From NCBI RefSeq assembly GCF_003011885.1, contig NZ_PXXO01000007.1, positions 1-64,000 of the forward strand: a DNA stretch of 64,000 nucleotides, in the 5' to 3' direction. The translations under genes and the position numbers were made by a program. Shown here one piece after another: positions 12,181 to 28,669 of the stretch (positions are counted from its first letter, which is position 1; each line of letters starts with the position of its first letter). The DNA is from Cyanobium usitatum str. Tous. Its GTDB lineage: Bacteria; Cyanobacteriota; Cyanobacteriia; PCC-6307; Cyanobiaceae. Under the pieces are notes generated by a model. It made no database searches, was not told the origin of the DNA, and saw nothing but the letters and a program-made list of their open reading frames with translations.

Positions 12181-12209
12181 CGGCCCTCAACCAAATTGTC
12201 GTCGGACAA

Positions 12210-12452
12210 ATGCGACCCGGCAAACGCCGAGCCTTACCGGACACACCAGATGGAAAGCTGCAGGATCTGATCGAGACGGCCAAAGCTCACATCCGCTCCA
12301 AGGTTGAGCATCCTTTCCGGGTGATCAAGCAGCAGTTCAGCTTTCAGAAAACCCGCCTGCGCGGCCTCGCCAAAAATCGCTGCAAGATCAATGTGATGGC
12401 GGCACTCTCTAACCTGCTCCAGGCCCGACGACATTTGCTTGCGAGAGTCTGA
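12210..12452 (+). pseudogene. IS5-family transposase C-terminal remnant
   Basis: 80 residues including KAHIRSKVEHPFRVIKQQFS and FQKTRLRGLAKNRCKINVMA, the conserved C-terminus of IS5-family transposases (the Y-(2)-R-(3)-E-like segment with VEHPFRVIK). The N-terminal catalytic part is absent; its place is taken by the IS481 fragment in opposite orientation. The stop at 12450-12452 is followed by the repeat at 12478-12625, probably the element's right end. Confidence 0.8.
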
Positions 12453-12477
12453 CCAGGGGCTTGGTGTGTCTCAACAC

Positions 12478-12625
12478 CTCGATTCAGCCTAAAAAACCAG
12501 CCCAAAGTGGCTGAACATGATCCCAAAAGACATCAGACAGCGGCCTCAGAGGCAATTCACGGCCAAAGGCACTCTTTCCTGCTCGCTGCCTCCGCTCAAA
12601 CCCCGTTTGTCCAGAGATTCCCTAA
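12478..12625 (+). repeat. IS 3'-end-like repeat, copy 2
   Basis: It resembles 9575-9735 in order and orientation and follows the IS5-type transposase stop at 12452. It runs up to the 3' end of rmd. The pair brackets the AT-rich gene 9759-11636 as direct repeats about 2.9 kb apart, which would allow loss of that gene by recombination. Confidence 0.6.
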
Positions 12626-13536
12626 CTCGGCGCACTTGCTTCGAACATCCAGCGCAGCGTGTCCTTAAGTTTGTACAAAGGCAGGGCACCGACAACCGAT
12701 TCCAATCGATCCCGGGTACCAAGCAGGACGCGAACCTCGTTGGTCCGGGCTAAGGTCCTGTTTACCCGTACTTCCATCCTGTGCATTGAAACTTCCTCCA
12801 CCATTGCGAGAACCTCATGCAATGTAAAGGCTCGGCCGCTGCAGATGTTGTAGGTGCCCCCGATCGCCGCCGGTGTGCTGATAAGGCGGCGGTAGGCCTC
12901 GACTACCATCCGGACATCGGAGAAGTCGCGTGCGACCTCGATGTTGCCCAGCTCAATAAAGCGCGCGCGCCTTCGGGTGTGGGCCACTATCTTCGGCAGC
13001 AGAAAGGTCTCTGACTGGCCGACGCCGGTATAATTGAATGGCCGAGCAATTATTATAGGCAAGCGGTTTGCGTACAGGTGACTCAAGTATTCCATCGCGA
13101 GCTTGCTGACCGCGTAATCGTTGGCTGGGTCGGGTGGGGTGTCTTCACTTATGACCCCCTTGGTGCTGTTGCCGTATACGTTGGCGCTGCTCGCTAGCAG
13201 TACGGCTGCGGGTCGCCTCGGCAAGGAAGCCAGCGCTTCTAACAGGTGCCGGGTACCGATCAGGTTCGTGCGGTAGACCGACTCCGCGTCCCCGTGCGCC
13301 ACGAAGGACACACCGGCCAGATGGACGACGAAGTCGGGGGCGACGCTGCGCACGATCTGGTGGACGCGAGTCGCATCGACGAGATCCCCCACATGTGCGT
13401 CCCACGGTGCGGCTTCATGGCAGGTGCGCGTAACTAGTCCATGGACCTCGTGTCCATGGTCCTTCAACAACGGTGCGAGGTAACGACCGGTGAATCCATC
13501 GACCCCGGTGACCAAGGTTCTGCTTGGCATCGGCAC
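12622..13536 (-). CDS. rmd: GDP-6-deoxy-D-mannose reductase-like NAD(P)-dependent epimerase/dehydratase
   Basis: 304 residues, extended SDR. TGVDGFTGRYLAPLL near the N-terminus is the nucleotide-binding glycine motif, and YAVSK (about residue 141) is the catalytic Tyr-Lys pair; SSANVYG precedes it. The family partner of Gmd reduces GDP-4-keto-6-deoxy-D-mannose at C4 to GDP-D-rhamnose. Length and the DGFTGR signature fit Rmd better than the bifunctional GDP-L-fucose synthase. The likely start is GTG 13534-13536, whose G is the last base of the gmd stop (TAGTG), so the two are coupled. A paralogous 4-reductase of another 6-deoxyhexose cannot be excluded. Confidence 0.8.
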   Translation of the reverse strand: MPMPSRTLVTGVDGFTGRYLAPLLKDHGHEVHGLVTRTCHEAAPWDAHVGDLVDATRVHQIVRSVAPDFVVHLAGVSFVAHGDAESVYRTNLIGTRHLLEALASLPRRPAAVLLASSANVYGNSTKGVISEDTPPDPANDYAVSKLAMEYLSHLYANRLPIIIARPFNYTGVGQSETFLLPKIVAHTRRRARFIELGNIEVARDFSDVRMVVEAYRRLISTPAAIGGTYNICSGRAFTLHEVLAMVEEVSMHRMEVRVNRTLARTNEVRVLLGTRDRLESVVGALPLYKLKDTLRWMFEASAPS

Positions 13537-14570
13537 TAGAAGGAGAAGCCGGCTTCGTTGCGTCGCAGGTCGGCCGTCACCATCATCTGGCAGAGCTGCT
13601 CCAGCGTGGTCTCAGGCGCCCAGCCGAGTTTCTCGCGTGCCTTCGCAGGATTACCGATCAGCAGGTCGACTTCGGCAGGACGGTGGAAGCGTGGATTGAC
13701 GCGGACGATGGTCTTACCCGTCGCCGTGTCCACACCGACCTCGTTGACGCCCTCACCGCGGAAATCGAGTTGGATGTCCGCCGCTGTCGCGGCCATGCGA
13801 ACGAAATCACGAACTGTCTCGGTCCGGTTCGTTGCAAGGACGTACGTGTCCGGGCGATCGACCTGGAGCATCTTCCACATCCCCTGGACGTACTCTTGCG
13901 CAAACCCCCAGTCGCGCTTGGCGTCCATGTTGCCGAGTTCGAGTACGTCGAGCTTGCCCAGCCGGATCTTCGCGATCGAATCGGTGATCTTGCGGGTCAC
14001 GAACTCCAAGCCCCGCAGCGGGGACTCATGATTAAAGAGGATGCCGGTGCAGCCGAATATGTCGTAGCTCTCCCGATAGTTGATCGTCATCCAATGTGCG
14101 TACAGCTTGGCGACGCCGTAGGGGCTGCGCGGATAGAACGGTGTGTCCTCGGCCTGTGGAATGGCCTGCACTTTGCCGAACATCTCCGATGTACTGGCCT
14201 GGTAGAAGCGGATCTTCCGGTCGAATAGCCGGATCGCTTCGAGAAGGTTAAGCGCGCCGATGCCAGTGATTTCGCCGGTGGTCACCGGCTGCTCGAACGA
14301 CACGCCCACGAAGCTTTGGGCGGCGAGATTATAGACCTCAGTTGGAGAAGCACGCTCAAACAGCCGCATACATGTGCTCAGATCGGTGAGATCGAACTCC
14401 ACTAGGTGCAGGCGCGGATGCCGGGTGACGCCCAGTTCATCCAAGCGCCAGAAGTTGACCGAACTCGTCCGACGGAAAGTCCCGAAGACTTCGTAGCCCT
14501 TGTCGAGCAACAATTCAGTGAGGTAGGCCCCGTCTTGACCGGTAATGCCCGTTATTACAGCAGTCTTCAT
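13536..14570 (-). CDS. gmd: GDP-mannose 4,6-dehydratase
   Basis: 344 residues. [21 protein letters not shown] is the Gmd-type Rossmann motif; [33 protein letters not shown] (catalytic Tyr and Lys) and [16 protein letters not shown] are diagnostic for Gmd. It converts GDP-D-mannose to GDP-4-keto-6-deoxy-D-mannose with tightly bound NADP. The product is passed to the adjacent rmd gene (one-base overlap) and perhaps the upstream C-methyltransferase. The ATG at 14568-14570 begins nine bases after the preceding gene's stop at 14580, so genes 12622-15818 form one operon read on the minus strand. Confidence 0.93.
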
Positions 14571-14579
14571 GATCGCTCC

Positions 14580-15818
14580 TCAGATAATCTCGATCTCGGG
14601 GAACGGTATGATGAAGCGACCGCCGCTTGCTAGGTACTCCTTTTCGCGCCGCAGGATTCCTTCCTTAAAATGCCACGGCAGCACAAGGAAGTAGTCGGGC
14701 CGCATTGCGCGTGCGTCCTCCTCCGACACGATGGGGATATGGGATCCAGGTGTCACGCGGCCGAATTTCTCGATGTTGACCTCGGCGATCGCCGGGATAT
14801 CTTCTCGCGTGAGACCGCAGAACTGCAGCACTACGTTGCCCTTCGTGCTGGCGCCGTAGCCCAGCACGCGCTTGCCGTCGGCATTCAGCGTGCGGATGAG
14901 CCGCGTCAGGTCGTCGCGATGGCGGAACACGCGTTCCTCGAAGTCGCGGAACGGCTTGGGCGTGTTCAGCCCCATCCTGTCTTCTTGCACAAGCAGCCAG
15001 TCGACGACCGCCTGGTTGGTGCGCACCGTCTTGTTCGCCGCCTTGGCTGCCGTCACCGCGAAGCTGCCGCCGTTGACAGCATTCATGACCACGTCCACCA
15101 GCCGGAGGCCCGCAGCCTCGAGGATGCGCTTCACGGCACCGAGCGAGTAGTACTCGAGGTGCTCGTGGCAGATCGTGTCGTACGAGTTCATGCGCAGCAT
15201 CGACGGCATGTAGCTCTGTTCGAAGTGCCACACGCCGTCGTCGGCGAGGATCGACTCGATCTGCCGCGCGAACTCGATGGGTGCGTCGAGGTCGTAGAAC
15301 ATCGCGATGGAGGTAACTATGCGGGCCTGGTCTGTCTCAATTGAGCGATAGGCCGCCTCCGAGAAGAAGTCTGGAACGAGCCGAACATCGGGTGGGTAAT
15401 ACTCCTTGAACTTCCTGCCGGTTGGGTCGATGCCGATTCGGCGTAGGCCTGCTGTCTGGTAGGCCCTTAGCGTCGTGCAGTCGTTGCTGCCGATGTCCAA
15501 GATCACGTCGTCAGCCTTCGGCTGGACCAGGCGTTCAAGGTAGGCTACCTTCTCTGTCAGGTGGCTCACCATCGACTGGTTCAAGCCTGAACGATAACCG
15601 TAGTTGTCTCCATACATTTCGGATGGTTCGTACGAGTGCCGCAGTTGCAGCAGGCCACTGTCCGGGCACCAGACCAGTTCCAGCGGCCCGTTGGTGACAT
15701 TCTCGTTGGCTCTGCGCGGGAAAACGCCGGTCAATGCCTGATGACCAAGGTTCAGAACCGATACGAGATGCTCGCTGCCGCTGATGCGGCATTGGTCGAT
15801 GGCTTTGTATGAGTTCAT
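14580..15818 (-). CDS. Three-domain sugar C-methyltransferase (Methyltransf_13/23/14 type)
   Basis: 412 residues with the layout of NDP-hexose C-methyltransferases: an N-terminal zinc-type region (DQCRISGSE ... VWCPDSGLLQL), a SAM-binding domain (DVILDIGSNDCTTLRAYQ, about residues 104-120), the IVTSIAMFYDLDAP and HFEQSYMPSML motifs, and a C-terminal Rossmann-like domain (VLGYGASTKGNVVLQFC). The zinc region shows one Cys in each half where relatives usually have CxxC pairs, so the metal site looks degenerate. Placed directly upstream of gmd and rmd, it most likely methylates a GDP-keto-6-deoxyhexose to a branched sugar. Substrate is inference. Confidence 0.8.
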   Translation of the reverse strand: MNSYKAIDQCRISGSEHLVSVLNLGHQALTGVFPRRANENVTNGPLELVWCPDSGLLQLRHSYEPSEMYGDNYGYRSGLNQSMVSHLTEKVAYLERLVQPKADDVILDIGSNDCTTLRAYQTAGLRRIGIDPTGRKFKEYYPPDVRLVPDFFSEAAYRSIETDQARIVTSIAMFYDLDAPIEFARQIESILADDGVWHFEQSYMPSMLRMNSYDTICHEHLEYYSLGAVKRILEAAGLRLVDVVMNAVNGGSFAVTAAKAANKTVRTNQAVVDWLLVQEDRMGLNTPKPFRDFEERVFRHRDDLTRLIRTLNADGKRVLGYGASTKGNVVLQFCGLTREDIPAIAEVNIEKFGRVTPGSHIPIVSEEDARAMRPDYFLVLPWHFKEGILRREKEYLASGGRFIIPFPEIEII

Positions 15819-15845: not shown

Positions 15846-18800
15846 TTACTGGAATGAAGCGAACAGCTCGTCCGCCGAGAAGGTGGCTAGTGGATGTCGG
15901 GCTTCCTGCGCTCGCAAATACACTGAACTCAGACTTGGGATGGCTGCTTGGAACTCCGGAAGATGCTTGAATCGATTGATCAGGCGTTGAAGTGAAACAT
16001 GTTGAGCATTCCCTTCAGGGTCGGAATCTAGAATTTCGTTCAGAAAGTGCAGTATCGAGGGGATTAGATTAACACGCCAGCAATCTATCTGGCTTGGATT
16101 CCCTCCATAGCGCTCTGCCACGTCGAACGCCTCTGGTAGGCGCTCTAGGATCCAGAGCGGAGCGTATTTCATCCACGATACGTTTAGGTTGACGACCAGC
16201 TGCGGCTGCCCCATCCAGTAAGCCGGCTCGTCCATCATGTGATGGAGGACGTGGTAGGTCGTCGGAATACAGGACAGCATCGTCGAGAATGGCTGCCCAG
16301 ATGTGTTCTGGGAATATGCCCGCAAAGCGTGGTCGCGCCGGAAGATCAAGCAATAGATGGCGGTGAAGAAGTTCTCTGACATCGCGCACATGTCGCGCAC
16401 CGTACCGGCCTTGTCCGGCCCGACCGGGCCAATCGGTGAGGCTTCTCCGAGGAACTTGTCGAGATCTTGGACCTCTTCTGCCTTGTCGTTGCGGGTATAG
16501 GCGTAGTTCAAGTAGACCAGCGAGGTGCCCTTGTGCGTACTAAGAATATCTAACAAGCGCTCGATCGTTCCAGGGAGAACCAGATCGTCATCCCCGAGGA
16601 TCCAGATGTACTGGCCACGCGCGTGGTTGGCCGTCACCTTGAGGTTGCCCAGCATGCCCACATTCTCGCTGTTGCGCTCGTATCTAAAATCAGAGCGCCC
16701 TAGGTAGGGTTGCACGATCTCGGGCGTATTGTCAGTTGAGGTGTTGTCGCAGACGAGCAGTTCGATCTCCGGCAAGGGTTGCGGGAGCAATCGCACTAGG
16801 TTTTTGAGGTTGATTGACAGCCAAGCTTCTCGATTGAAGGTGGAGATGCAGATCGAGAGCAGTGGTCCGCGCGATAGGTTCGGCATCTGTGCGTACAACT
16901 GTGTCGGAGTCGTGATCGCGGACGGCGTGCCGATATCGGCCACGTAGTGCCGCTCTGATGCTAGGTGGTGCAGTACCTCTTTGCCATACTCTTTCCATGT
17001 CTTGAATTGCCGCGCGACGGCCTCGTCACCAAGACGAGCCAGCACCTCCGGGTAGTCGACCAGTTTGCAGATGCTGTTTGCGATCTGCTGAACGTCCCGG
17101 ACATCCACCATCATGCAGCCACCACCTTCAGCCACCTCCCGCATCGCCCCAAAGTCCCCGCACAGGCATGGTTTTGCGTTCCACAGGCTCTCAAGGATGG
17201 GAAGTCCAAATCCTTCTTCGATCGAAGGATAGACTGTAAAGTCTGCGGAGCGATAGAGTTGTTGGAGTTCACTATCGCCAATGCCCTTAAGCCATTGCGC
17301 CCCGGGCAGTGTGTCGACAAGCAGCTGAACCCTTTCGGCTAGGTCGGCAAAAGGGGCTCCACCGACGAGCGTTATCTCGAATGGCACCTTGGTTTCCAGT
17401 AGCGCTAGGTGCATAGCCTTCAGCAGGCGCTCATGGTTCTTGCGGGGCTCAACGGTACCTACGCAAAGGATGCGCACCGGCGATTTTTGATGAGAAACCT
17501 TCGGTTCGCTGACTCGCGGCATCCCTGAGAATTCGCCTGGCAGCACGCATGAAACCAACCGCTTATGGATCTCGCCGACGCGCACTGCTTGGCGAGTGAG
17601 GAAAGATGTCAGGTCGTTGCAGGTGTAGTACGAGGTTGCAAAGACCTTGTGGGCTCTGTTCAGTGCCAGCATATAGTCCCGATGAGCTTCCGACGCCTCT
17701 GGCGGGTACATATCTGTAAGCTTCCATGGGATTGCATCGTGAAAGATCCATGCGCATCGCAACGCCTTAGATAGAGCAAAATCGATCATCTGCTGTGTCT
17801 GAAGGTGCGTTACCTCTGCGACTACCATCCAGTCAAAAGGGCCGGAACTATCCAAGGGTTTCCAAGGTGCCCACAGGCGCCGTAAAGGCCCATTCCACTT
17901 CTCGAGGTGTGCTAAATCTACATCTGAAGCTGGTTCAAGGGTCTGGCGTTCGCAGGACCAGCATGCAGGAACAAGGTGTGCGCCCAACTCCAGCAAGGCG
18001 CGCGCAAGCGACCGCGTGACGCGCTGGATACCTGTATTTCCTTCGTGATGCGCAGTCTGATCTATTACATAATATATAACTCCTATGTGGGCGAGCGAAC
18101 TGCTCTGCTCTGTGAGCATCGTCTTCAACCGGCCGGCGTACCCGTGCCAAGTGTCGATGTGCCTAGCTCTTGCCTGCGAGGCTAGCTCTTCGCGGAGGCT
18201 CCGGTCTTCGATAAGGGCCACCATTCCCCTGAATAGCGCCTTCGCGTCTTTCGTGTCGACACCAAGGCATCCGCCGCCATGGGCAACCTCCGCCATCGCA
18301 CCGAAGTCCGCGCACAGGCATGGCTTCCCGAACCACAGGCTCTCAAGGATCGGAAGGCCGAAGCCTTCGATCACTGAAGGAAAGGCAGTGAACGCCGCAT
18401 CGGAGTAGAGCTGCACCAACTGCTCGTCGTCAACGTCGCCCAAAAACTGGATGCGGTTATTACGCTGGATTATTTCCATCAACTGCGCATGTAGCTCGCC
18501 ATGAATGTTGCCAACCAGCAGCAGGCGCCATGCCGTCGAGGGATTGTCTAAGCAGTAGCGTTCAAACGCCTGTACTAGCGCTATCTGATTCTTGTGTGGC
18601 AGGATCGATCCGACCGACAGAAAGTACGGTTCGCTCGGCTCTTGCTGCTGCTCACACACCCTTACTCTCGGCGTCAGATGCGACTCGCCAGGCAGCGGCA
18701 GCGCTTCGATGTGGGGGCCAGGTCCGCGCTTTGCTGACAGGGCCAGGCGCAGATAGGCACTTAAATCGGCGCTGACCCAGTGAGAGATGGGTAGCACCAG

Positions 18801-19508
18801 GTCCGCCAGCATCAGCTGCTGCATATACATCGCATGGGCGTCTGCCATGTCGGTTAGCTCCGGCCGCCGAAGCGGCGTGGCGTCGTAGAAGATGAACGCG
18901 GTCCGCAGGCCGCTGCGCTGCCCCGCCCCGATGACAGGCAAGGTCATTGGCTCTGGCTGGAAGGTGATGTGCGTGACTTCCGGCACGATCAACCAGCACC
19001 CATCGTCGGGTGTATGCCTGGGTAGATGACGGATTCCCTCGTCGGGTGCGGGATATTCTGCGATGTCGGACGGCGACAGCTGAGGGCCGTTCCAGTTCCC
19101 TAGGTAGGCAACCTCATCTTGGTTGAGCAGGCACAAAGCCTTGGCTGACGGATCCCACTTGACGAAGCTCACTTGCTCGCCTGATTTGAGAAGAGCGTCG
19201 CTGAGTCGGCGAACTACCCTCTGTATTCCTGTATTAACAGGGCAGGAGACAGTATGTTCGACATAAATATATAGATTTCGCTGGGAGACGTCAAGATTAG
19301 ACGTTCGATGTAGGGCAGGTATTGAGCCGGTTACATTTGGGGCTCGTGCAGGGGTTGTCTGCCTGTAAGTGCGCGATCCGCATAGCTGCACAATTAGATC
19401 AGCATATCCAGAGAATTGAGGATAGCGCTCTTTGTACTGAAGAGCACATAAAATAGCCTCTTCGTATGAGCCTTTGCTCACTAAATCTCTTATTCTTGAG
19501 GCGTGCAT
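15846..19508 (-). CDS. Triple-domain glycosyltransferase (GT4-GT4-GT2)
   Basis: 1220 residues. After a short helical N-terminus come two paralogous GT4 domains: one at about 80-465 (CPVNTGIQRVVRRLSDALL ... GFGLPILESLWFGKPCLCAD) and one at about 470-860 (HEGNTGIQRVTRSLARALL ... GFGLPILESLWNAKPCLCGD). Both keep the E-x7-E-like donor motif region. A GT2 domain follows from about 880 (LSICISTFNREAW, LVCDNTSTDNTPEI) with metal-binding DDD in WILGDDDLVLPG near residue 970. Such proteins build two to three linkages of an O-antigen or capsule repeat unit. The frame is intact over 3.6 kb. It leads the minus-strand GDP-sugar operon. Confidence 0.85.
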   Translation of the reverse strand: MHASRIRDLVSKGSYEEAILCALQYKERYPQFSGYADLIVQLCGSRTYRQTTPARAPNVTGSIPALHRTSNLDVSQRNLYIYVEHTVSCPVNTGIQRVVRRLSDALLKSGEQVSFVKWDPSAKALCLLNQDEVAYLGNWNGPQLSPSDIAEYPAPDEGIRHLPRHTPDDGCWLIVPEVTHITFQPEPMTLPVIGAGQRSGLRTAFIFYDATPLRRPELTDMADAHAMYMQQLMLADLVLPISHWVSADLSAYLRLALSAKRGPGPHIEALPLPGESHLTPRVRVCEQQQEPSEPYFLSVGSILPHKNQIALVQAFERYCLDNPSTAWRLLLVGNIHGELHAQLMEIIQRNNRIQFLGDVDDEQLVQLYSDAAFTAFPSVIEGFGLPILESLWFGKPCLCADFGAMAEVAHGGGCLGVDTKDAKALFRGMVALIEDRSLREELASQARARHIDTWHGYAGRLKTMLTEQSSSLAHIGVIYYVIDQTAHHEGNTGIQRVTRSLARALLELGAHLVPACWSCERQTLEPASDVDLAHLEKWNGPLRRLWAPWKPLDSSGPFDWMVVAEVTHLQTQQMIDFALSKALRCAWIFHDAIPWKLTDMYPPEASEAHRDYMLALNRAHKVFATSYYTCNDLTSFLTRQAVRVGEIHKRLVSCVLPGEFSGMPRVSEPKVSHQKSPVRILCVGTVEPRKNHERLLKAMHLALLETKVPFEITLVGGAPFADLAERVQLLVDTLPGAQWLKGIGDSELQQLYRSADFTVYPSIEEGFGLPILESLWNAKPCLCGDFGAMREVAEGGGCMMVDVRDVQQIANSICKLVDYPEVLARLGDEAVARQFKTWKEYGKEVLHHLASERHYVADIGTPSAITTPTQLYAQMPNLSRGPLLSICISTFNREAWLSINLKNLVRLLPQPLPEIELLVCDNTSTDNTPEIVQPYLGRSDFRYERNSENVGMLGNLKVTANHARGQYIWILGDDDLVLPGTIERLLDILSTHKGTSLVYLNYAYTRNDKAEEVQDLDKFLGEASPIGPVGPDKAGTVRDMCAMSENFFTAIYCLIFRRDHALRAYSQNTSGQPFSTMLSCIPTTYHVLHHMMDEPAYWMGQPQLVVNLNVSWMKYAPLWILERLPEAFDVAERYGGNPSQIDCWRVNLIPSILHFLNEILDSDPEGNAQHVSLQRLINRFKHLPEFQAAIPSLSSVYLRAQEARHPLATFSADELFASFQ

Positions 19509-19669: not shown

Positions 19670-19903
19670 TCAGTCGTGTTCATGCGGGCGATCTACCGTG
19701 AACTTGCCAGCCGCAATCCAGCCCTCGGGTTCCTTCTCGGATGCCGGCACCACCTCTCGCTGCAACCGCCAGGCCTTCCTCCAGTTGTAGAGGGTGACCA
19801 CGTGAATGCCCAGTTCTGCTTAGACCTGGGCCACGCTCTGCCGGTGTGGCGGACTCATCAGCCTTCTCACATCAGCTTTGACGGCCTCGCTGATACGACG
19901 CAT
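19670..19903 (-). pseudogene. Transposase helix-turn-helix subunit (IS3/OrfA-like), nonsense and truncated
   Basis: From ATG 19901-19903 the frame reads MRRISEAVKADVRRLMSPPH, RQSVAQV, stop, then AELGIHVVTLYNWRKAWRLQ, REVVPASEKEPEGWIAAGKF. This is the helix-turn-helix opening of an OrfA-type transposase with one in-frame TAA at codon 28. After GKFTV the frame departs and ends at 19670-19672. Truncation and stop both show decay. The IS family assignment is tentative. Confidence 0.6.
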
Positions 19904-19929: not shown

Positions 19930-20759
19930 TCAAAGGCTGACATCTTTCCTGAAACCGGGAGCTCCTGAGTGCTCCGGCGGCCAGCGCCACGGCGAGGCTG
20001 GGGCGGCGCCATCCCTATCTGCTAGTAGGGGTTCAGCGATGCTCAGCTGCTCCAGCGGCCAGGCGATGGCCAGATCCGGATCGTCCCAGCGGATGGAGCA
20101 CTCGTAGGCTTTGTTCCAGAAGCCGCTCGCCTCGTAGAGCACCTCGGCACAGCTTGCCCCACGCCGATGGCGCCACCCGCCGCGCCCTCTCCACCACTGT
20201 GGAGTCATAGAAATAGAGCCCGGTCACGGCATAGCGGCTCCTGGGTTGGCTGGGTTTTCCCCCCCAGGCTGGTCACCCGCCCTTTGCCATCAAAGGCCAT
20301 GACGCCGTAGCGCTCCGGATCCCGCACCGGGTAGGCGTACACCGTGGCGCCCTGGCTGCTGCCATTGCTGGCGGCCAGCTGGGGCATCAGGTCGTGGCCA
20401 TGGAACATGTTGTCCCCCAGCACCAGGGCCGCCGGTGCGCCGGCAAGAAACTCGGCGCCAATCAGAAACGCCTGGGCCAGGCCATCGGGGCTGGGCTGCA
20501 AGGCGTACTGGATCGCCATGCCCCAGGCGCTGCCATCGCCAAGCAGACGCTGGAAGGCTGGCTGGTCTACCGGTGTGGTGATGATCAGCACCTCCCGGAT
20601 CCCCGCCAGCATCAAGGTGCTGAGCGGGTCGAAGATCATCGGCTTGTCGTACACCGGCAGCAACTGTTTGCTCACCGCCTGGGTGATCGGGTGCAGCCGA
20701 GTGCCGCTACCTCCAGCAAGAATGATGCCTTTTCGCTGCAACGTGGTGTGCGGCAACAT
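19930..20759 (-). pseudogene. rmlA-rmlC deletion chimera (dTDP-rhamnose pathway remnant)
   Basis: The 5' part is glucose-1-phosphate thymidylyltransferase: [60 protein letters not shown]. The frame shifts near 20250 ([11 protein letters not shown] versus [19 protein letters not shown]). At about 20170 the sequence jumps into the C-terminus of dTDP-4-dehydrorhamnose 3,5-epimerase: [45 protein letters not shown]. The genes for RmlA and RmlC are commonly neighbours, so one internal deletion explains the junction. No functional dTDP-L-rhamnose enzyme remains here. Confidence 0.85.
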
Positions 20760-21634: not shown

Positions 21635-22098
21635 TCATCCAGGCTCACCCGGAGCTGATGGCGGAATCACCGGAATCACATCACCACGAACCTGATCGGG
21701 TATTAAGTGCGCGAGGTCATCATCCGTGGAGAGAAGAAAGGCGTCGGCTGCAGCCGCGCAGGCTGCGATCCAAAGATCGTTGTTACCCATATGCCGTGCA
21801 CCCTTGGGGTGTTTTCGGGCGTTGAGATCAATGCGCACGTAAGCATCGATCACCAGCGGATGATGGATGTCAACAACCACCAGGCTCTGGAGTGTGCGCT
21901 CCAATGTCTGTCGTTTGCGGTCCCCCCAGTGGTTCACCGCTGCAAGGACGCGAACCTCAGCCAAGCTGACAACGCTGACCAAAGGTCGTACGAAAGGAGA
22001 ATCCGTTGGCATACCCCAGTGCCCCGTACCAGGTGATTGATCACGCTGGTATCGAGAAGGAACAGCTGGTTCGCCGGTACCAGTGAGCCTTGGCTCAT
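21635..22098 (-). pseudogene. PIN-domain (VapC-like) toxin, frameshifted
   Basis: The start ATG at 22096-22098 overlaps the antitoxin stop (ATGA): MSQGSLVPANQLFLLDTSVI, NHLVRGTGV, with the first PIN Asp in LLDTSV. Near 22020 the frame is lost and resumes as VSVVSLAEVRVLA, GNNDLWIAACAAAADAFLLS, TDDDLAHL, carrying the second acidic (AE), third (NDLWIAA) and final (TDDDL) motifs. The full toxin needs one frameshift to be reversed. The end is at 21635-21637. Confidence 0.75.
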
Positions 22099-22808
22099 CG
22101 AATCGCCTGCAGTGCCTCAATCAGCTCCGCATCACTTTCGCTCCCAGGCCACGCCCCGACGAACGACGCCACACCACTGTGCTGATCATGAGGCAGGCTG
22201 CGAATGACAGGCTGTCGACTCGCGGGAAGTGGGATGTGCGCAAACAGGGCATCCCGAGGTTCTGAGCGATCAAGGCCATCCACAGCGATTTGCTGGATCG
22301 ACCCCGAAGGCCGATAGTGAGCTGTGCCTGTAACCAGAACGCGCTCGTGCCATAGGCTGCGCAACTGTTAAGGACCAATGCTTGATCCTAATCGCGCCAG
22401 TACGGTTTAACCCCTCTCGGCCCTGAGGAGCACTGTTTGGCGGCTCCCAGAAATGGTGTCCAGCAGACAGGTGAAGCGAACAGCCTGGGGCAGTGGCGTG
22501 TCCTGGATCAGGGCTTCCGGCTGGGGTACATCAGCAGGTGAGAGCGCAACACTTTGGCGATCGTCTTCAACGTCGCACAAGACAACTCCATGGAATTCAC
22601 CTCTGGGGAGGCGCGCCAAACGCAAGCAACTCTCCAGCAGAGCCCGGTCAGCATGCACGGCTGCAGCATTACCAGCCTTCACTTGATGGAGCACCCTGAT
22701 GAACAGGTCGATAGCGCTGCCATCAGGCCCGATCGGCTCGTTGGCTTCACCGAACAGATCTTGTTGCTGTAAGCCGCCAAATTGCTCTGGGGCAGCCTCT
22801 TGCAGCAA
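22095..22808 (-). pseudogene. Probable antitoxin partner of the PIN gene, interrupted
   Basis: Two open pieces lie on one strand: 22407-22808 (IDLFIRVLHQVKAGNAAAVH, RALLESCLRLARLPRGEFHG, FTCLLDTISGSRQTVLLRAE) and 22095-22364 (LRSLWHERVLVTGTAHYRPS, SGVASFVGAWPGSESDAELI, EALQAIR). The second ends in the ATGA overlap with the PIN toxin and has an SGVA.F.GAWPG.E.D.EL-type tail that I associate, from memory, with antitoxins next to PIN toxins. The gap of about 40 bases contains stops, so I read them as one gene broken by a small insertion. The family assignment is uncertain. Confidence 0.45.
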
Positions 22809-22852
22809 GGGGGCTTACAGATCCAGCACGGCTGACTCGGAGGTCCAGCCAG

Positions 22853-23209
22853 TCACCAGATGGGCGGTGTAGGTCTCCAACCAGCGGGGCCTTGGGCCGG
22901 CCTGGGAAGTGAGGCCTTCCACATAAAAGCGTGAAGCTTGCCGCGTACCATCCTAAGGGGGATCTCTCGGAGCACCTCGATCGAGATGCGGAGCCTGTCG
23001 GCGGAACCGCCCTGCACAACCAGGCGGTGCTGTTTTACGTGGAAAAGGAACCATGAGATAGGGCATTGCCTTAGGGCCCTCGTTGGGATTGGGACTGACG
23101 TCTTGGCCGCCATTCGCTCCAGGGCCGCCGGGTCACACCGCAACTGCGGGTTGATGATCCACTGCGTAGCGCTTGGTGATAGGCGGGTAGCCGGCCTCAG
23201 CGAGGCCAT
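22853..23209 (-). CDS. Unrecognised possible ORF in debris region
   Basis: An open frame of 118 residues, including WIINPQLRCDPAALERMAAK and FHVKQHRLVVQGGSADRLRI, without any motif I recognise. The opposite strand is also open over much of this stretch, so coding is unproven. No ribosome binding site stands out. The 535 bases between 22809 and 23344 hold nothing better supported. It may be a decayed fragment. Confidence 0.2.
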   Translation of the reverse strand: MASLRPATRLSPSATQWIINPQLRCDPAALERMAAKTSVPIPTRALRQCPISWFLFHVKQHRLVVQGGSADRLRISIEVLREIPLRMVRGKLHAFMWKASLPRPAQGPAGWRPTPPIW

Positions 23210-23344
23210 CGGCTGCCGGAGCTTCTACGAGCGCTTGATCCCTGAGTTCGAGTGTTCACCCACCGATTCCTTTCAACTGCTGCTGCTTAAGGACATCAGC
23301 CGCAAGCTGGGCTCACGCCGGCGACCACGTGATCGCCAGCACTT

Positions 23345-23656
23345 TCAAGCTGGCGTGAGCTCCATGGGGGTCAACCCGGAAAGATCAAGGCACTGCCGCG
23401 CCTGCCACAGGTCGTAGTTGTCTTGCATGGAGAGCCAGCTTTCGGCACTGCGCCCCAGCACCCGCGACAGCCTGAGAGCCATATCTGGCGTGATCCGGCT
23501 TTTGCAGGCGACCAGCCGCTGAAAGGTGGATGCCGAAACCCCCAACCGCGCGGCCACCTGCCGGATGGAGAGGTCACAGGGTTCGAGATACACCCCTTCG
23601 ATGAATTCACCGGGGTGAGGTGGATTGTGCATTGGTGTCACTTGATTAAGCGCCAT
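23345..23656 (-). CDS. higA: HigA-family XRE antitoxin
   Basis: About 95-103 residues; MHNPPHPGEFIEGVYLEP at 23632 is the classical HigA opening and the likelier start, though an in-frame ATG overlaps the higB stop (TGATG) at 23654-23656. The helix-turn-helix reads LSIRQVAARLGVSASTFQRL, followed by KSRITPDMALRLSRVLG and SWLSMQDNYDLWQAR. It neutralises the HigB encoded just upstream and represses the operon. Order is toxin first, antitoxin second, as usual for higBA. Copies of its last codons recur at 25025-25069 and 27790-27862. Confidence 0.88.
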   Translation of the reverse strand: MALNQVTPMHNPPHPGEFIEGVYLEPCDLSIRQVAARLGVSASTFQRLVACKSRITPDMALRLSRVLGRSAESWLSMQDNYDLWQARQCLDLSGLTPMELTPA

Positions 23657-23934
23657 CAGTGGTAATCCTCAAAATCCAAATCGAACACGTGGCCATCGCG
23701 GAAGGCAAACGTGAGCCGCCAGTTGCCGTTCACCCAGATCGACCACCGCCCCTTCTCTGCCCCCTTGAGCAGATGGAGGCGATAACCCGGCAGATCCATG
23801 TCTTCGATCTGGGTTGCAGAGTGGAGTGCCGCAAGCTGCAGCCGCAGCTTGCGGGCCAGAGGTGCCTGAATCCCTGCGGTGCTGCCGGTTTCGAAAAACT
23901 GGCGCAGCCCCTTGTGCCGGAAATCCTGGATCAC
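23656..23934 (-). CDS. higB: HigB-type mRNA interferase toxin
   Basis: 92 residues from GTG 23932-23934 (IQDFRHKGLRQFFETGSTAG), matching the usual HigB start and length; a longer upstream frame exists but is not conserved-looking. EDMDLPGYRLHLLKG, GRWSIWVNGNWRLTFAFRDG and DLDFEDYH are family signatures; the Trp-Arg region belongs to the ribosome-dependent RNase site. The stop overlaps the higA start by one base. This is the only complete higBA pair in the window. The gene just upstream on the plus strand is a hicB remnant pointing away. Confidence 0.88.
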   Translation of the reverse strand: MIQDFRHKGLRQFFETGSTAGIQAPLARKLRLQLAALHSATQIEDMDLPGYRLHLLKGAEKGRWSIWVNGNWRLTFAFRDGHVFDLDFEDYH

Positions 23935-24109
23935 CCGATCCACGCTGCCAGCATGCAGTTTAGCGTGTTGCGCAACGGGCCGCATTGATTTCGCGTGGCA
24001 TCACGCGAACACCTTCCAAGTGGCAAGTACTGAAGTACCGACGAAATCCGTCTTGTCATACGCTGATTGAGGTGTGTTGGAAGCTTTTGATCCAATCGAG
24101 GCTGCGGGC

Positions 24110-24361
24110 GTGAGCACTTACACCGCTGTTGTGAAGCTGGACGGCGACTGGTGGATCGGCTGGGTGGAAGAGGTGCCAGGCGTGAATGCCCAGGAACGAA
24201 CGCGTGAAGGGCTGGTGGTTTCTCTGAAGGCGGTGCTGCAGGAAGCCCTGGAGATGAACCTCGACGAAGCTGCTGCGTCCTCTCAGCCAGCACGGCTGCA
24301 CCCTCTTGCGCCAGGCTCATCCCCCCCTGCAGCAGCAGCTGGCCGGCGCCGGCGAGGATGA
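24110..24361 (+). pseudogene. hicB: HicB-type antitoxin, 3'-truncated
   Basis: From GTG 24110: STYTAVVKLDGDWWIGWVEE, VPGVNAQERTREGLVVSLKA, VLQEALEMN. This is the partial-RNase-H fold of HicB antitoxins with its V.EVPGVN..E.TRE signature. After about 24290 the family sequence ends and the frame runs into the reverse complement of the hypothetical gene at 24300-24707, stopping at 24359-24361. No hicA is next to it. The two genes appear joined tail to tail by a deletion or rearrangement. Confidence 0.7.
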
Positions 24362-24707
24362 ATGCCTGCTGGAAGCCTTTGTTGGCACTGTCGTTGGCCT
24401 GATTGCTCTGTTTTCTTCCTATGACCACGTCAACCTCCTCCACCGTCAGCTCCCGCTCCAGCAGCAATGGGGCGTCTGGCTCATCGCTCTCGAAGTGACG
24501 CTTGATTTTGCGGATGCTCAACTGGCGGCGCGATCCCGCCAGAGAGATGCGGCTGAAAGAGCTCGCGTTGCTCGACTGGATGCACTCAGAAATCGACTTG
24601 ATCGAGGCCGACTTGCCGTCTGAACGCACAAGCGCCGCAGACTCCAGCGACTGCTGAACCTGCTCAACAGCCAAGAGCTGGCTGAGCTGTATCGCGCTTA
24701 AGTTCAT
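24300..24707 (-). pseudogene. Hypothetical protein, truncated at its 3' end
   Basis: ATG at 24705-24707 (MNLSAIQLSQLLAVEQVQQS) overlaps the stop of the small ORF 24704-24793 (ATGA). The frame stays gene-like through RRQLSIRKIKRHFESDEPDA, PLLLERELTVEEVDVVIGRK and AGAGQLLLQGGMSLAQEG, then meets the hicB remnant at about 24300 and continues as antisense nonsense to 23931. I do not recognise the family. A 25-base match to this gene occurs near 20930. Confidence 0.4.
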
Positions 24708-24793
24708 CTCACCGCCTTCAGCGCCTGGCGCGTCGCCGAGCAATCCAGCGGGGAATAGCTGTGGGCCGCTGCGCGGGTCAGGAGAACTTTCAT
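24704..24793 (-). CDS. 29-residue ORF coupled to the next gene
   Basis: MKVLLTRAAAHSYSPLDCSA, TRQALKAVR, preceded by GGAGGG six bases before the ATG at 24791-24793. Its stop overlaps the next ATG (ATGA), a coupling typical of real operons. It may be a genuine leader peptide or the shortened remnant of a longer gene. No family is recognised. Confidence 0.35.
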   Translation of the reverse strand: MKVLLTRAAAHSYSPLDCSATRQALKAVR

Positions 24794-24888
24794 GGCTTGC
24801 CCTCCATTGCAGATTTCCGTGATTGCACGGATGCAGGCCATGCCCCTGTCAGCAGCCAGTGGCTGTGTGATGAGTCCAGTCCATTGGC

Positions 24889-25038
24889 GTGAAGATACGG
24901 GAGGTGATCAAAGCCCTGGGACAGGCGGGATGTGTGGCCACATGCCCCACGCGTGATGACGTTCTCGCTGAGATCCGTGACGCCATTGCTTTCACCTCGA
25001 AAGCCTTGCCGAGTAAAAGCACCTTCATGCCGGCGTGA
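24889..25038 (+). pseudogene. hicA-hicB deletion fusion
   Basis: From GTG 24889 the frame reads KIREVIKALGQAGC, matching the first 14-15 residues of HicA toxins (M-K-[IV]-R-E-V-I-K-x-L), and continues directly as VATCPTRDDVLAEIRDAIAF, matching the interior of HicB antitoxins (GCVA...TR-E-V-L-x-x-I-R-x-A-I-x-F). The 49-codon frame stops at 25036-25038. An in-frame deletion between the two genes, starting and ending at a shared Gly-Cys codon pair, explains it. It lacks the catalytic His of HicA. Confidence 0.6.
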
Positions 25039-25069
25039 GCTCCATCAGGGTCAGCCCTGAAAGATCGAG
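25025..25069 (-). repeat. Copy of the higA 3' end
   Basis: The minus strand encodes LDLSGLTLMELTPA and stop, nearly identical to the last 14 codons (LDLSGLTPMELTPA) of higA at 23345-23656. No higA body is attached. It overlaps the end of the hicA-hicB fusion on the other strand. Confidence 0.7.
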
Positions 25070-25115
25070 TCGCTGAATTACCAGATAAGATGCTGAGTAA
25101 TTCACATGGTCTGAC

Positions 25116-25349
25116 GTGAGAAGCACAATCACCTCCCGCGGCCAAACCGTGATCCCCGCCGCGATTCGCGAGCGCTTTGCCCTCGGGCCTTCCCAGCGGC
25201 TGGAGTGGTTGGTGGAGGCTGATGGTTCAATCCGCGTGGTCCCAGTGGCGGCCTCCCCCATTCAGGCCTTTCGCGGCCAGGGGAAACAAGGGGGCTCCTC
25301 CCGGCGGCTGTTAGCCGATCGACAAGCCGATGCCGCCCTGGAGGCCTGA
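25116..25349 (+). CDS. AbrB/MazE-type (VapB-like) antitoxin
   Basis: 77 residues from GTG 25116: RSTITSRGQTVIPAAIRERF is the swapped-hairpin SpoVT/AbrB DNA-binding motif, followed by LGPSQRLEWLVEADGSIRVV. The tail (IQAFRGQGKQGGSSRRLLAD) is the toxin-binding part. The stop overlaps the toxin ATG (TGATG at 25347-25351), so translation is coupled. The ribosome binding site is weak, and the start immediately follows higA/hicAB debris, so the native promoter may have been lost. Confidence 0.82.
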   Translation: MRSTITSRGQTVIPAAIRERFALGPSQRLEWLVEADGSIRVVPVAASPIQAFRGQGKQGGSSRRLLADRQADAALEA

Positions 25350-25735
25350 TGTCCCGTTTCTGCCTCGATACCTCAGCCCTGCTCACCCTCCGTGATAACG
25401 AGCCCGGTGCCGATCGCGTCGCCCAGCTGCTGGAAGCGCCTGTGCGATGCGTGGCCTGTTTCATGACCCGTATGGAGGTGCTCTACCGGGTCTGGAAAGA
25501 TGAAGGCGAGCGAGCTGGCCGCCTGGCCTATGAGCAGCTCCAGGCCTTGCCGATCGACTGGCTGGAGGCCACCGAGCCCCTGCTGCTGAGCGCAGCTGAA
25601 CTCAAAGCCAGCCATCGCCTCTCCTTGGCCGATGCCTGGATTGCGGCGGCGACTCTCCAGTGCGGCGCCACCCTGTTGCACAAGGACCCGGAGTTTCAGC
25701 CGATCGCCGGCCTCGATCAGGAGTGGCTGGGGTGA
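25349..25735 (+). CDS. vapC: VapC-type PIN ribonuclease toxin
   Basis: 128 residues, complete. RFCLDTSALLTLRDNEPGA gives the first catalytic Asp; MTRMEVLYRVWKDEGE carries the Glu; LSLADAWIAAATLQCGATLL has the third acidic residue; HKDPEFQPI is the C-terminal motif, here K-D-P-E-F as in many VapC. Length is typical. It would cleave RNA (often initiator tRNA or rRNA) when free of the adjacent AbrB-like antitoxin. The one-base overlap with the antitoxin confirms the pair. This is the only undamaged PIN module in the window. Confidence 0.88.
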   Translation: MSRFCLDTSALLTLRDNEPGADRVAQLLEAPVRCVACFMTRMEVLYRVWKDEGERAGRLAYEQLQALPIDWLEATEPLLLSAAELKASHRLSLADAWIAAATLQCGATLLHKDPEFQPIAGLDQEWLG

Positions 25736-25939
25736 GCAGCGCCCGTTCGACAGCAGCAGCCGTCAATGCACTGACCCATAAGTCACTTAACAGCCATCTC
25801 GCACCCTGAACCAGCCCTGCCCGATCTCGATGAAGGCGAGGTGTCCGAAGGTCTGCAGTGGCAGGCAGAATTCAGCCGTAGGGGCTTTCGGCGTAATCTG
25901 AGATCGGTTCTGCTGAACACAACAGGAGGAGCACAACCC

Positions 25940-26227
25940 ATGCGTCTCGCCGAGTTGCAGCACCTAGCACCCCAGATCAATGAGCTCCTAGGCCGTTTTG
26001 GGGCAAGCAACGTCGCGGTCTTCGGGTCTGTTGCAAGAGACCAGGCAAATCCTGGGAGTGATGTTGATCTGCTGGTGGACCTGCCAGATGGAGCAAGCCT
26101 GTTTGATCGAGCAGAGCTGAAGTCTGCGCTCGAGGAGCTTCTGTTATCTCGGGTCGATCTGATCCGGCGCCGCAACCTGAAACCAAGCGTCAAGGCGGTT
26201 GTGGAAGCAGAAGCAGTCAGCCTCTGA
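25940..26227 (+). CDS. MNT-type nucleotidyltransferase antitoxin (MntA-like)
   Basis: 95 residues from ATG 25940, with AGGAGG ten bases upstream (a longer frame to 25841 lacks homology). NVAVFGSVARDQANPGSDVD contains the GSx10DxD active site of minimal nucleotidyltransferases; LLVDLPDGASLFDRAELKSA and SRVDLIRRRNLKPSV follow. In characterised MntA-HepT pairs this enzyme AMPylates a Tyr of the HEPN toxin and so silences it. Its stop overlaps the start of the HEPN gene by one base (TGATG). The antitoxin frame is intact while its partner has a premature stop. Confidence 0.85.
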   Translation: MRLAELQHLAPQINELLGRFGASNVAVFGSVARDQANPGSDVDLLVDLPDGASLFDRAELKSALEELLLSRVDLIRRRNLKPSVKAVVEAEAVSL

Positions 26228-26550
26228 TGGAGCAGAGGGATCGCCAGGCGCTGGAGGACATCCTTGGTGTTCTAGATCGTGCCCTGGAGTTCCCGATCCC
26301 GGACGCCCAGACGCTGGAGGACACGACCTATTTACAGGATGCGGTGATTCGCTGCCTAGAAGTACTCGGAGAAGCCACCAAGCGATTGAGCAGAGAGATT
26401 CGAATCGCGCACGCATAAATACCCTGGCGTGCCATGGCAGGAATGCGCGACGTACTTATTCATGCCTACGATCAAATCGATTTGGAGGAGGTCTGGATGG
26501 CGTACCAGCTATTTCCAAAGATCAGAAGCCAAGTAGCTGAGATCCTTTAG
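26227..26550 (+). pseudogene. HepT-type HEPN (DUF86) RNase toxin with one in-frame stop
   Basis: MEQRDRQALEDILGVLDRAL, DTTYLQDAVIRCLEVLGEAT, KRLSREIRIAHA then TAA at 26416-26418. The same frame resumes at once: IPWRAMAGMRDVLIHAYDQI, DLEEVWMAYQLFPKIRSQVA, stop at 26548-26550. Total 107 codons plus stop, normal for DUF86. The part after the stop holds RDVLIHAY, the RX4HXY motif with the catalytic Arg/His and the Tyr that MntA modifies, so the truncated product cannot be an active toxin. A single base change would restore the gene. Confidence 0.88.
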
Positions 26551-26581
26551 CAGATCTCCTGAAGCCAAGCATCTGCTGGCT

Positions 26582-26809
26582 TCAGGAGAAGATTGGTTGG
26601 GTTGTGGTGGCCACAAGGACTTCAGGGCTATGTCCCATCGAGCGCGCCGCTGACCCTGCATCGCGATGGATGCCATAGCTGAGTTCATGCAGCACCACCC
26701 TGGCTGTGAACAACGCATGCGTGCCATGCTCTAGTTGTGCCATCACAGCAGGATCAGGCTCATCCCGCAGCGGCTCCGACAGCACGTTGGTATCAAGAAG
26801 CACCCTCAC
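26582..26809 (-). pseudogene. PIN-domain toxin, 3'-truncated
   Basis: From GTG 26807-26809: RVLLDTNVLSEPLRDEPDPA, VMAQLEHGTHALFTARVVLH, ELSYGIHRDAGSAARSMGHS, then stop at 26582-26584. The first Asp (LLDTNVLSE) and the Glu region (VLHELSYGI) are present; the C-terminal half with ADGQIAA and TRN.DF motifs is absent. Upstream on the same strand, 26812-26990 has pieces that look like another PIN end (NAFLLCTDDDLRR) fused to a short antitoxin-like tail ending at the GTGA overlap. Only about 75 residues remain. Confidence 0.65.
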
Positions 26810-27007
26810 CCCAGCGACACCTCGCGGCCCGCAGATCGATCGCGCCAGCCCTCCACCTCCAGCTCGCCAGGCGCTCCGTGGGGCAGCGGCCATGCAACGC
26901 GGCGTAAGTCATCATCAGTGCAGAGAAGGAAGGCATTTGCTGCAGCCGGCGATGTTGGTAGACATCGACGATGAGGTGCTGTTCTTTGTAAGCTGGCCTG
27001 AAGCCCG

Positions 27008-27402
27008 TCAGCGGCACGACCCAAGCCGATCCAACAGCAGCTTTCTCAGTTCGGATGCAATCTGAAGGATGAATTCCAGGTCAATCTCAAGCTCGGGTTC
27101 ACTGGGATCGGGATAGCGAAAATCAACGGCGGCCAGAGATAACCGGTTGAGAGTCATAGTTTCTGCAATCCAGCGGTCGTCAGCTTGATGCAGCAAATCC
27201 GAAAGCTCTCGCAGATTATGGGTTTTAGGAACCGGCAACTTCAGCCGCATCAGCTCAGCCTTGAACAGCTTCTCGATGCATTGCTGCACGTGAAAGCAAA
27301 TGCTTCGCCCATTCCCCCCAGCGCTTGCAAGGATCTGGCTGTCTTGCCGTCTTCCTCCGCGTAACGGATCCAAGCCTCAACCAGCGGTGTGTGATTAGCC
27401 AT
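27008..27402 (-). pseudogene. HEPN-domain protein, frameshifted in a homopolymer
   Basis: ATG 27400-27402 overlaps the end of the nucleotidyltransferase gene by eight bases: MANHTPLVEAWIRYAEEDGK, TARSLQALGG. In the run of six G (plus-strand CCCCCC near 27315-27320) the frame must shift by one to continue as ICFHVQQCIEKLFKAELMRL, KLPVPKTHNLRELSDLLHQA, RLSLAAVDFRYPDPSEPELE. This is the HEPN fold partnered with MNT enzymes (CFHVQQ..EK..KA and H-N-L). No RX4-6H RNase motif is visible, so it may be the non-nuclease type. As it stands the product is truncated. Confidence 0.8.
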
Positions 27403-27724
27403 GGAGGACCTCTCCGTGATCAAGGGCCTCACGAATGAACGGATCTCCCCAGTCGTAACGCTGCGCTGCAGCTTCTGGTCTGCATAGCAAAAGGTCTACT
27501 GGAAATGACGATGCCCCCACCTGAAGCATGGTTAACCTCTGCTCGAAGGAACTGCCCTCAAATGGCATCACCACCAGGATGTCGGCATCGGAATCCCAAC
27601 GAGCCCTACCGCGAGCCTGAGAGCCAAATAAAATAACTTTTTGTGGAGCTAAATGCTCCACAAGTCGCTGTGTGAAAGCCCTCAGGGCCTCACGGGTAAC
27701 CAGGGGGGGTGGTATTGACGTCAT
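27395..27724 (-). CDS. MNT-type nucleotidyltransferase
   Basis: 109 residues from ATG 27722-27724 (TSIPPPLVTREALRAFTQRL). KVILFGSQARGRARWDSDAD is the GSx10DxD active site (here DAD), then ILVVMPFEGSSFEQRLTMLQ and SFPVDLLLCRPEAAAQR. The frame can be read further upstream, but that part is a higA tail remnant (27790-27862), so the shorter start is chosen. Overlap of eight bases with the following HEPN gene marks a module. The enzyme is intact, its partner frameshifted. Confidence 0.8.
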   Translation of the reverse strand: MTSIPPPLVTREALRAFTQRLVEHLAPQKVILFGSQARGRARWDSDADILVVMPFEGSSFEQRLTMLQVGASSFPVDLLLCRPEAAAQRYDWGDPFIREALDHGEVLHG

Positions 27725-27789
27725 TGCATCCATCATCGCCCCACTTGCAGCGGCCTGTCCCCAGGCGACTGGGGTGAGCTCTTGCGTGA

Positions 27790-27862
27790 TGCCTCGCAGG
27801 GCTTGCTGGCGAGCTGAAGGCGCCTGCCACAGGTCGTAGTTGTCTTGCATGGAGAGCCCATT
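27790..27862 (-). repeat. Remnant of the higA 3' region
   Basis: The minus strand encodes LSMQDNYDLWQAPSARQ and then TQELTP, echoing the C-terminus of higA at 23345-23656. A 37-base segment at 27822-27858 is identical to 23400-23436. The remnant is fused in frame to the upstream side of the nucleotidyltransferase gene. Confidence 0.75.
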
Positions 27863-28194
27863 CATTCCATCCAGATGCAGCGTCCCACCCGTTGCAGGTG
27901 GGCCTCCAGCTCGGCGGGCAGCTCATGGCGCAGCACCAGATCTACCCGCCAGGGCATCAGTAGGTCGTCTACCGCTGCCATCAGCTGCAAACGATCGCTG
28001 TGACTGAGCTCGGCGCCCTCCAGGCAGAGATCAATGTCGGATCCCTGTTGGTGCCGGCCCATCGCCCGTGAGCCAAACAGCCAGACAGCCTCAACATGCG
28101 GATGCCGCGCCAAGACCTGCAAGAGCTGCTTCACCCGGGCCTCCGGGATGCCGGGGATGGCCATCGACTCGACTGGTAGGGGGAGTCGACTCAT
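27862..28194 (-). CDS. MNT-type nucleotidyltransferase (HI0073-like)
   Basis: 110 residues, ATG 28192-28194, overlapping the stop of the HEPN gene (ATGA). VEAVWLFGSRAMGRHQQGSD then IDLCLEGAELSHSDRLQLMA: the GSx10DxD site is present (GSRAMGRHQQGSDID). LLMPWRVDLVLRHELPAELE follows, with the third acidic residue in VDLV. It belongs with the HI0074-like HEPN subunit. Whether it AMPylates its HEPN partner or another substrate is unknown. The pair lies directly downstream of polA on the same strand. Confidence 0.85.
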   Translation of the reverse strand: MSRLPLPVESMAIPGIPEARVKQLLQVLARHPHVEAVWLFGSRAMGRHQQGSDIDLCLEGAELSHSDRLQLMAAVDDLLMPWRVDLVLRHELPAELEAHLQRVGRCIWME

Positions 28195-28604
28195 CGCGAT
28201 TCCGCTTGCAGGCGCTGCTCCAGCAGCGAACGCAACTGCTGAAAACAGGCAAGGTAGCTGCTGCTGATGTTGTCCCCGATCGCATCAGCTGTGGAGCGGT
28301 TGTAGGTGTGGCTGGTGAGGTTGCGGTCTTGAATCATCAACATCCAGGCTTCGCCGTCGGCGATCAGCCCCAGCCGAAACGCCTCCCTAAGGGTGTCGCG
28401 CGAGCCCAGCAACGTGGCATCGCCCTGGCTGCGGAGTAGGTCGCGCAAGGTGTTCCAAGCCAGTTCGAAGGTGTATTCGAAGGCTTTGATCAGGCCCTGC
28501 TGCTCCCTTTCATTCAAGGCCGGCGGCTGGAAGAAGGTTTCCAGTTGCGCCAGGGCCTGAAGGTAATTGTTGAAGCGCTGTTGCCAGCGGATGTCCTCTG
28601 CCAT
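28191..28604 (-). CDS. HEPN protein, HI0074 family (nucleotidyltransferase substrate-binding subunit)
   Basis: 137 residues from ATG 28602-28604 (a GTG just before it is possible). IRWQQRFNNYLQALAQLETF, LIKAFEYTFELAWNTLRDLL, RDTLREAFRLGLIADGEAWM and QDRNLTSHTYN are the HI0074 signatures. RNLTSHTY is an RX4HXY motif, as in HepT toxins, so it may be an RNase silenced by AMPylation of the Tyr. The gene is complete, four-base overlapped with its MNT partner. It sits about 65 bases after polA and may be co-transcribed with it. Confidence 0.88.
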   Translation of the reverse strand: MAEDIRWQQRFNNYLQALAQLETFFQPPALNEREQQGLIKAFEYTFELAWNTLRDLLRSQGDATLLGSRDTLREAFRLGLIADGEAWMLMIQDRNLTSHTYNRSTADAIGDNISSSYLACFQQLRSLLEQRLQAESR

Positions 28605-28669
28605 CACTCCCGGCCTCTTGTTGCCTCCAGCAACCCCATCCTCGCTCGCTTCGGTGGTGATGTCGCGCC

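Follow-up and report, generated by a model that had tools for sequence, protein, structure and literature searches.

A partly deleted, redundant rmlA-rmlC copy beside an intact gmd operon in the polA-cysS region of Cyanobium usitatum str. Tous

The rmlA-rmlC scar found in the stretch of DNA analysed here (the window; 64,000 nucleotides, contig C23:1-64000) is very probably what remains of a dead, partly deleted and redundant second rml copy in the polA-cysS island, and the intact gmd operon adjoining it would be a separate acquisition. The window belongs to the genome of a picocyanobacterium (G000; 2,515,215 bases in 25 contigs, 99.81% complete), whose cyanobacterial matches among named records are two from Cyanobium and one from an uncultured cyanobacterium. 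The features considered below are the following.

12209..12624, IS remnant abutting the operon end, 93% identical over 416 nt to the IS that ends the cut fcl gene on contig C1
12622..13536, minus strand, homologue of RMD-like GDP-4-keto-6-deoxymannose reductases, from structure matches
13536..14570, minus strand, gmd, the stop-free one of the two that the genome yielded at E 1e-80
14580..15818, minus strand, sugar 3-C-methyltransferase homologue, from structure matches and domain profiles
15846..19508, minus strand, 1220-aa glycosyltransferase comprising two stretches of group-1 (GT4-like) and one of family-2 type
19673..19903, minus strand, possible relic of a transposase helix-turn-helix, interrupted by a stop and located between scar and glycosyltransferase gene
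19974..20149, minus strand, rmlC relic, the final quarter of RmlC, beginning at residue 162 of 221
20149..20150, deletion joint, at which five intact rmlA-rmlC references have 679-724 bp more
20150..20735, minus strand, rmlA relic, approximately residues 4-198 of 295 in the numbering of the genome's own copy on contig C2
28670..31744, minus strand, polA, one edge of the polA-cysS region

Anatomy of the rmlA-rmlC scar

Homology to rmlA and rmlC is colinear on the minus strand of window 19930-20759, with the two relics abutting directly at 20149/20150. Their order and strand are those of intact operons, indicating that the scar is not a product of chance. In an alignment to the intact rmlA-rmlC of the relative G170, positions 20150-20735 correspond to rmlA (83.1% identity) and positions 19974-20149 to rmlC (73.4%), and across five intact copies the DNA identity of the rmlA part is 79-83%. 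The scar lacks 723 bases relative to G170, 724 relative to G188, 724 relative to G197, 682 relative to the own C2 copy and 679 relative to G008, which bears out the existence of the scar put forward in the original prediction. The open reading frame 20205-20759(-) matches the RmlA model TIGR01207 in a single frame over positions 1-161 of 286 (257.5 bits, E 1.3e-76), and the open reading frame 19930-20208(-) matches the RmlC model TIGR01221 over positions 124-166 of 176 (31.2 bits, E 1.7e-7). Both scores fall below the curated cut-offs (360.65 and 155.75 bits, respectively), and neither relic thus qualifies as a functional full-length enzyme. Compared with picocyanobacterial rmlACDB operons, the scar shares the rmlA-rmlC order and sequence but has shrunk to two thirds of rmlA and one quarter of rmlC, is frameshifted and is joined out of frame.

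The RmlA frame is open to residue 163, where a frame change at 20256/20257 occurs at or beside a G7 run (20259-20265), and homology then continues to approximately residue 198; a profile match that reaches RmlA model position 211 crosses the joint, the true rmlA limit being approximately residue 198. This frameshift is separate from the deletion joint. The two ends had been described as fused with a frameshift: the fusion stands, and the frameshift has to be moved from the joint into rmlA. The rmlA and rmlC parts lie in different frames at the joint, and a second frameshift, read by eye, is likely near the end of rmlC, at about 20005. No remnant of rmlD or rmlB was detected at E 0.01 in window 1-33000, where the rmlB matches were gmd and the RMD-like gene. 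The direct repeats flanking the scar are just short pairs of 12-20 nt. In the possible transposase relic, the piece after the stop matched HTH_23 with E 0.0087 and HTH_Tnp_1 with E 0.017, neither of which reaches its cut-off. The dN/dS values of the scar against eight references (0.11-0.29, rough values since the final scar codons extend past the joint) fall inside the range of intact references among themselves (0.07-0.31), and we see in them no clear sign of long decay. Among the papers listed by a literature search, whose scope did not extend to the polA-cysS site, none was seen to deal with an rmlA-rmlC scar from genomes of this kind.

The resident rml operon and the polA-cysS region

As first formulated, the original prediction held that the dTDP-L-rhamnose enzymes had been lost and that a GDP sugar had taken their place. 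The position of the scar next to an intact gmd operon agrees with this reading, and another genome (G050, see below) may show such a loss. However, a search for other rml genes revealed a complete operon on contig C2, in the order rmlA-rmlC-rmlD-rmlB and between ribH-mutS and secA, of which all four genes exceed the curated cut-offs: rmlA with 491.1 bits (cut-off 360.65), rmlC with 233.7 (155.75), rmlD with 271.2 (224.05) and rmlB with 440.5 (365.1). We therefore rejected the loss of dTDP-rhamnose, which in this form has hardly any probability left. The prediction had named as evidence against itself a complete rml set elsewhere together with the same arrangement fixed in all relatives. The former is present; as to the latter, the same scar is absent from every relative locus read, and the rmlA/rmlC fragments seen among these loci in G050 and G052 are different ones. 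When relatives were searched with the scar DNA, matches occurred in 47 of 99 genomes, and the loci read were ordinary rmlA and rmlC, except for the fragments named in this section.

The place between ribH and secA is the usual rml site in relatives. Counting the genome under study, 115 of 151 family genomes have an rmlA over the cut-off. We labelled 100 rmlA loci, the own C2 locus among them: 49 stand just after ribH, 4 just after polA, 17 are of "type B" (an operon with a distant rmlD) and 30 are elsewhere or have flanks too short to tell. This 49 of 100 should not be read as a frequency in the family, as 45 individually named loci had been excluded prior to labelling (genes fetched more than once, distant copies mostly from small genomes, non-rmlA matches, and the broken or rmlA-less loci L153, L154, L156, L067 and L165) and at least five of these (L186, L206, L207, L208 and L217) are also at ribH. 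Because a complete rmlACDB has been kept at ribH-secA, an extra copy would have been free to decay.

Directly after polA, cysS follows in 15 of the 20 loci considered from 19 relatives. In G005, 21 kb separate the two genes and contain sulfotransferase, glycosyltransferase, methyltransferase and HlyD genes. In the genome under study contig C14 carries cysS, ahead of which stand genes for glycosyltransferase, HlyD and ABC-transporter proteins, and this flank matches the cysS-side part of the G005 island (70.8% over 2095 bases). From these two flanks, we infer that the scar lies inside a variable surface-polysaccharide island between polA and cysS, the middle of which falls between contigs C23 and C14. 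Five other genomes carry rml genes just after polA. The order is polA-rmlA-C-D-B-cysS in G113 (L162) and polA-rmlD-rmlB-cysS in G020 (L165), whose operon is split, with rmlA-rmlC at ribH. It is polA-rmlA-C-D in G202 (L163) and the Umea MAG (L054), and polA followed by a frameshifted rmlA and then C-D-B in G177 (L155), cysS not being seen within the stretch for these three. At the expected place of cysS downstream of polA, G024 (L102) and G033 (L103) contain reading frames that span some 3087 and 3163 codons, respectively.

The interval between polA and the scar (window 21635-28607) holds a dense run of toxin-antitoxin-like genes, namely three PIN proteins, a HigB-like toxin with its HTH partner, several nucleotidyltransferase proteins, HEPN and NTase_sub_bind, and a HEPN/nucleotidyltransferase pair is found on the other side of polA (window 31786-32513).

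Broken rml copies are not confined to the scar. A second dead rmlA in the same genome, on contig C16 (L018:1754-2092), covers model positions 1-111, contains one TAG and is flanked by a sugar transferase-like gene and an ABC transporter; trees place it inside the type-B rml clade, so that it belongs to an rml lineage other than that of the resident operon. Among the listed rmlA fragments, the DNA was read for those of G000, G177, G052, G175 and G050, all of them broken copies. The list further includes G205 (C179), G159 (C57), G147, G169 and G141, several of these at contig ends. A frameshifted rmlA copy is also present in L067, a named Cyanobium record. An independent rmlA-rmlC fusion exists in G050 (L156:10095-10652), whose genome lacks any full-length rmlA or rmlC. 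The fusion forms a single open frame of 225 codons and lies 0.2 kb away from gmd, with an fcl-like gene nearby. This fcl-like gene scores 458.9 bits (cut-off 500), and the intact fcl of G005 is also under the cut-off (473.1).

Origin of the second rml copy

We propose that a redundant rmlAC(DB) cluster once stood in the polA-cysS region, a variable surface-polysaccharide island of the clade; the gene order at the scar suggests that a whole rml operon was formerly present. The extra copy would have arrived with transferred glycan-island DNA, the donor probably being near genus g31 or in the own genus. An internal deletion would then have joined rmlA to rmlC, a frameshift would have hit rmlA, and rmlD and rmlB of this copy would have disappeared, while the gmd operon would have been acquired separately.

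Two DNA trees group the scar rmlA with G170, G188 and G197, which belong to another genus. One tree (support 100/97) comprised 102 rows, with the C16 fragment and the scar added by hand and a bootstrap that had not settled. For the other (100/96.7), 29 rows were left out (17 type-B, the C16 fragment and 11 long-branched or distant ones, including the polA-side copy of G202), and the rows were cut to 645 bases for the tree and for the AU test alike. In a quick protein tree without a starred branch round the scar, the scar protein is nearest to G188 (88%) and G170, and dN is likewise lowest to these two (0.083 to G188 and 0.087 to G170, compared to 0.140 to the own C2 copy). By eye, the rml operon of G170 is surrounded by genes resembling glycosyltransferases and sulfotransferases.

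The alternative that the scar derives from the own-genus rml pool, either as a duplicate of the resident C2 operon or as a congener's copy, runs against both DNA trees and the dN values. It draws on the synonymous distances, which are lowest to two members of the own genus (dS of 0.475 to G008 and 0.476 to G004, compared to 0.573 to G170 and 0.765 to G188), and on G008 being the best DNA match over rmlA (83.4%; in the alignment to references G170 is at 83.1 and G008 at 82.1%). In the AU test, neither a sister position of the scar to the C2 copy (p = 0.275) nor its placement in one clade together with six rows of the genus (p = 0.261) was rejected. We regard this origin as possible, though the less probable one. 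The same side of polA and the same gene order could also suggest vertical descent of the scar from an old polA-side rml operon common to G113, G202, G177 and the Umea MAG. However, the polA-side copies do not form one group, starred branches forcing at least three changes, and polA and cysS are contiguous in most of the relatives' loci (15/20). The AU test weakly rejected a common clade of the scar and three of these four polA-side copies, G202 being left out (p = 0.0396), and we set aside membership in such an old operon as improbable. A transferred copy is the origin that we favour for the scar.

The adjoining gmd operon and the GDP-L-fucose genes

The operon next to the scar was correctly noted in the original prediction, and its genes, gmd, the RMD-like reductase gene, the 3-C-methyltransferase gene and the multi-domain glycosyltransferase gene, are intact and part of the variable surface-polysaccharide region. 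The genes are tightly spaced, with gaps of 27 nt and 9 nt followed by a one-base overlap. The window Gmd exceeds its curated cut-off (471.4 bits compared to 415). None of 24 listed NCBIfam models reached its cut-off with the reductase, which matches the RMD structures 2pk3 and 6x3b (129.7 and 123.7 bits) but is closer to an unnamed epimerase, 4lw8 (309.7 bits). The methyltransferase has the three-domain architecture PF08421, PF13489 and PF08484, each over its cut-off, and aligns with 4rv9, the D-mycarose 3-C-methyltransferase, from end to end (residues 4-411, 229.9 bits), the HEH stretch included. At E 1e-100 or better, it has matches in 8 of 400 family genomes, counting the one under study, and the 15 other members of the genus all lack such a match. 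Between the fkbM-like gene and the gene for a 634-aa methyltransferase, window 7772-9301 contains DUF772 and DDE transposase pieces in two frames.

3-C-methyltransferases of the 4rv9, 5t64 and TcaB9 (3ndi) type act on antibiotic sugars carried on dTDP; the neighbours of the window methyltransferase, in contrast, are GDP-sugar genes. The operon combines Gmd and a putative Rmd, the two enzymes of the GDP-D-rhamnose pathway, with this additional 3-C-methyltransferase, and judged from its genes its product is likely a GDP-3-C-methyl-6-deoxyhexose, plain GDP-D-rhamnose being possible. For virenose in Coxiella burnetii, a comparable GDP pathway through Gmd, a 3-C-methyltransferase and a reductase has been proposed in silico (PMC3539893). 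Synechocystis PCC 6803 is also a cyanobacterium with both rfbC and gmd/fucS genes. There, rhamnose persists in the absence of both putative rfbC genes and depends on FucS (PMC12285223), so that gene content does not settle sugar content.

The replacement of one surface sugar by another, originally predicted and likened to serotype switching or phage escape, is not supported for rhamnose and can be kept in a revised form, in which the broken genes are those for GDP-L-fucose. If one sugar replaced another, fucose would be a better candidate than rhamnose, since the other gmd and the fcl of the genome are broken. At E 1e-80, gmd matches occur in 14 of 16 genus genomes, own included, and the genome under study has two, one on contig C1 and one in the window. 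The C1 gmd (L250:8401-9423) encodes a protein 95% identical to that of G005 gmd and is interrupted by two stops, TAG (codon 80) and TAA (codon 98). The C1 fcl (L250:10283-10954) covers residues 1-224 of 323 and then runs into an IS with a DUF772 transposase; the remainder was not found within that 19.9-kb stretch, from which the loss of fcl was read. The 93% identical IS remnant abutting the end of the window operon may indicate that sibling elements shaped both the operon and the fcl places.

These observations raise the possibility that GDP-L-fucose, not dTDP-L-rhamnose, was replaced, with the window gmd now feeding the synthesis of a C-methylated GDP-6-deoxyhexose and the rml scar being a bystander. 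However, both stops in the C1 gmd are single G-to-T differences from G005, for which sequencing error is possible. In addition, among the eight other genus members looked at, fcl is near full length and free of stops in four (G001, G003, G005 and G011). That of G009 contains a stop, that of G010 runs off the end of the stretch, and the stretches fetched for G006 and G008 yielded no fcl; the gmd of G006 is also shortened. Decay or absence is therefore not special to the genome under study. G005 also carries a second gmd fragment with a stop (L251:4014-4300), upstream of its intact gmd. We put forward the fucose switch as a tentative and rather doubtful suggestion, compatible with our preferred explanation of the scar itself. 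Such a swap of GDP-6-deoxyhexoses, to which we would give no more than a minority chance, would imply that the GDP-L-fucose genes died and that an operon with a methyltransferase absent from the rest of the genus entered the polA-cysS island, of which the dead rml copy would be an earlier occupant.

A pseudogene next to a new pathway is no proof that the old pathway has been lost until the rest of the genome has been checked. In these picocyanobacteria, rml and polysaccharide genes appear to have been placed repeatedly in the stretch after polA. If true, a change from fucose to a C-methylated sugar would bear on how grazers and cyanophages recognise the cell surface.
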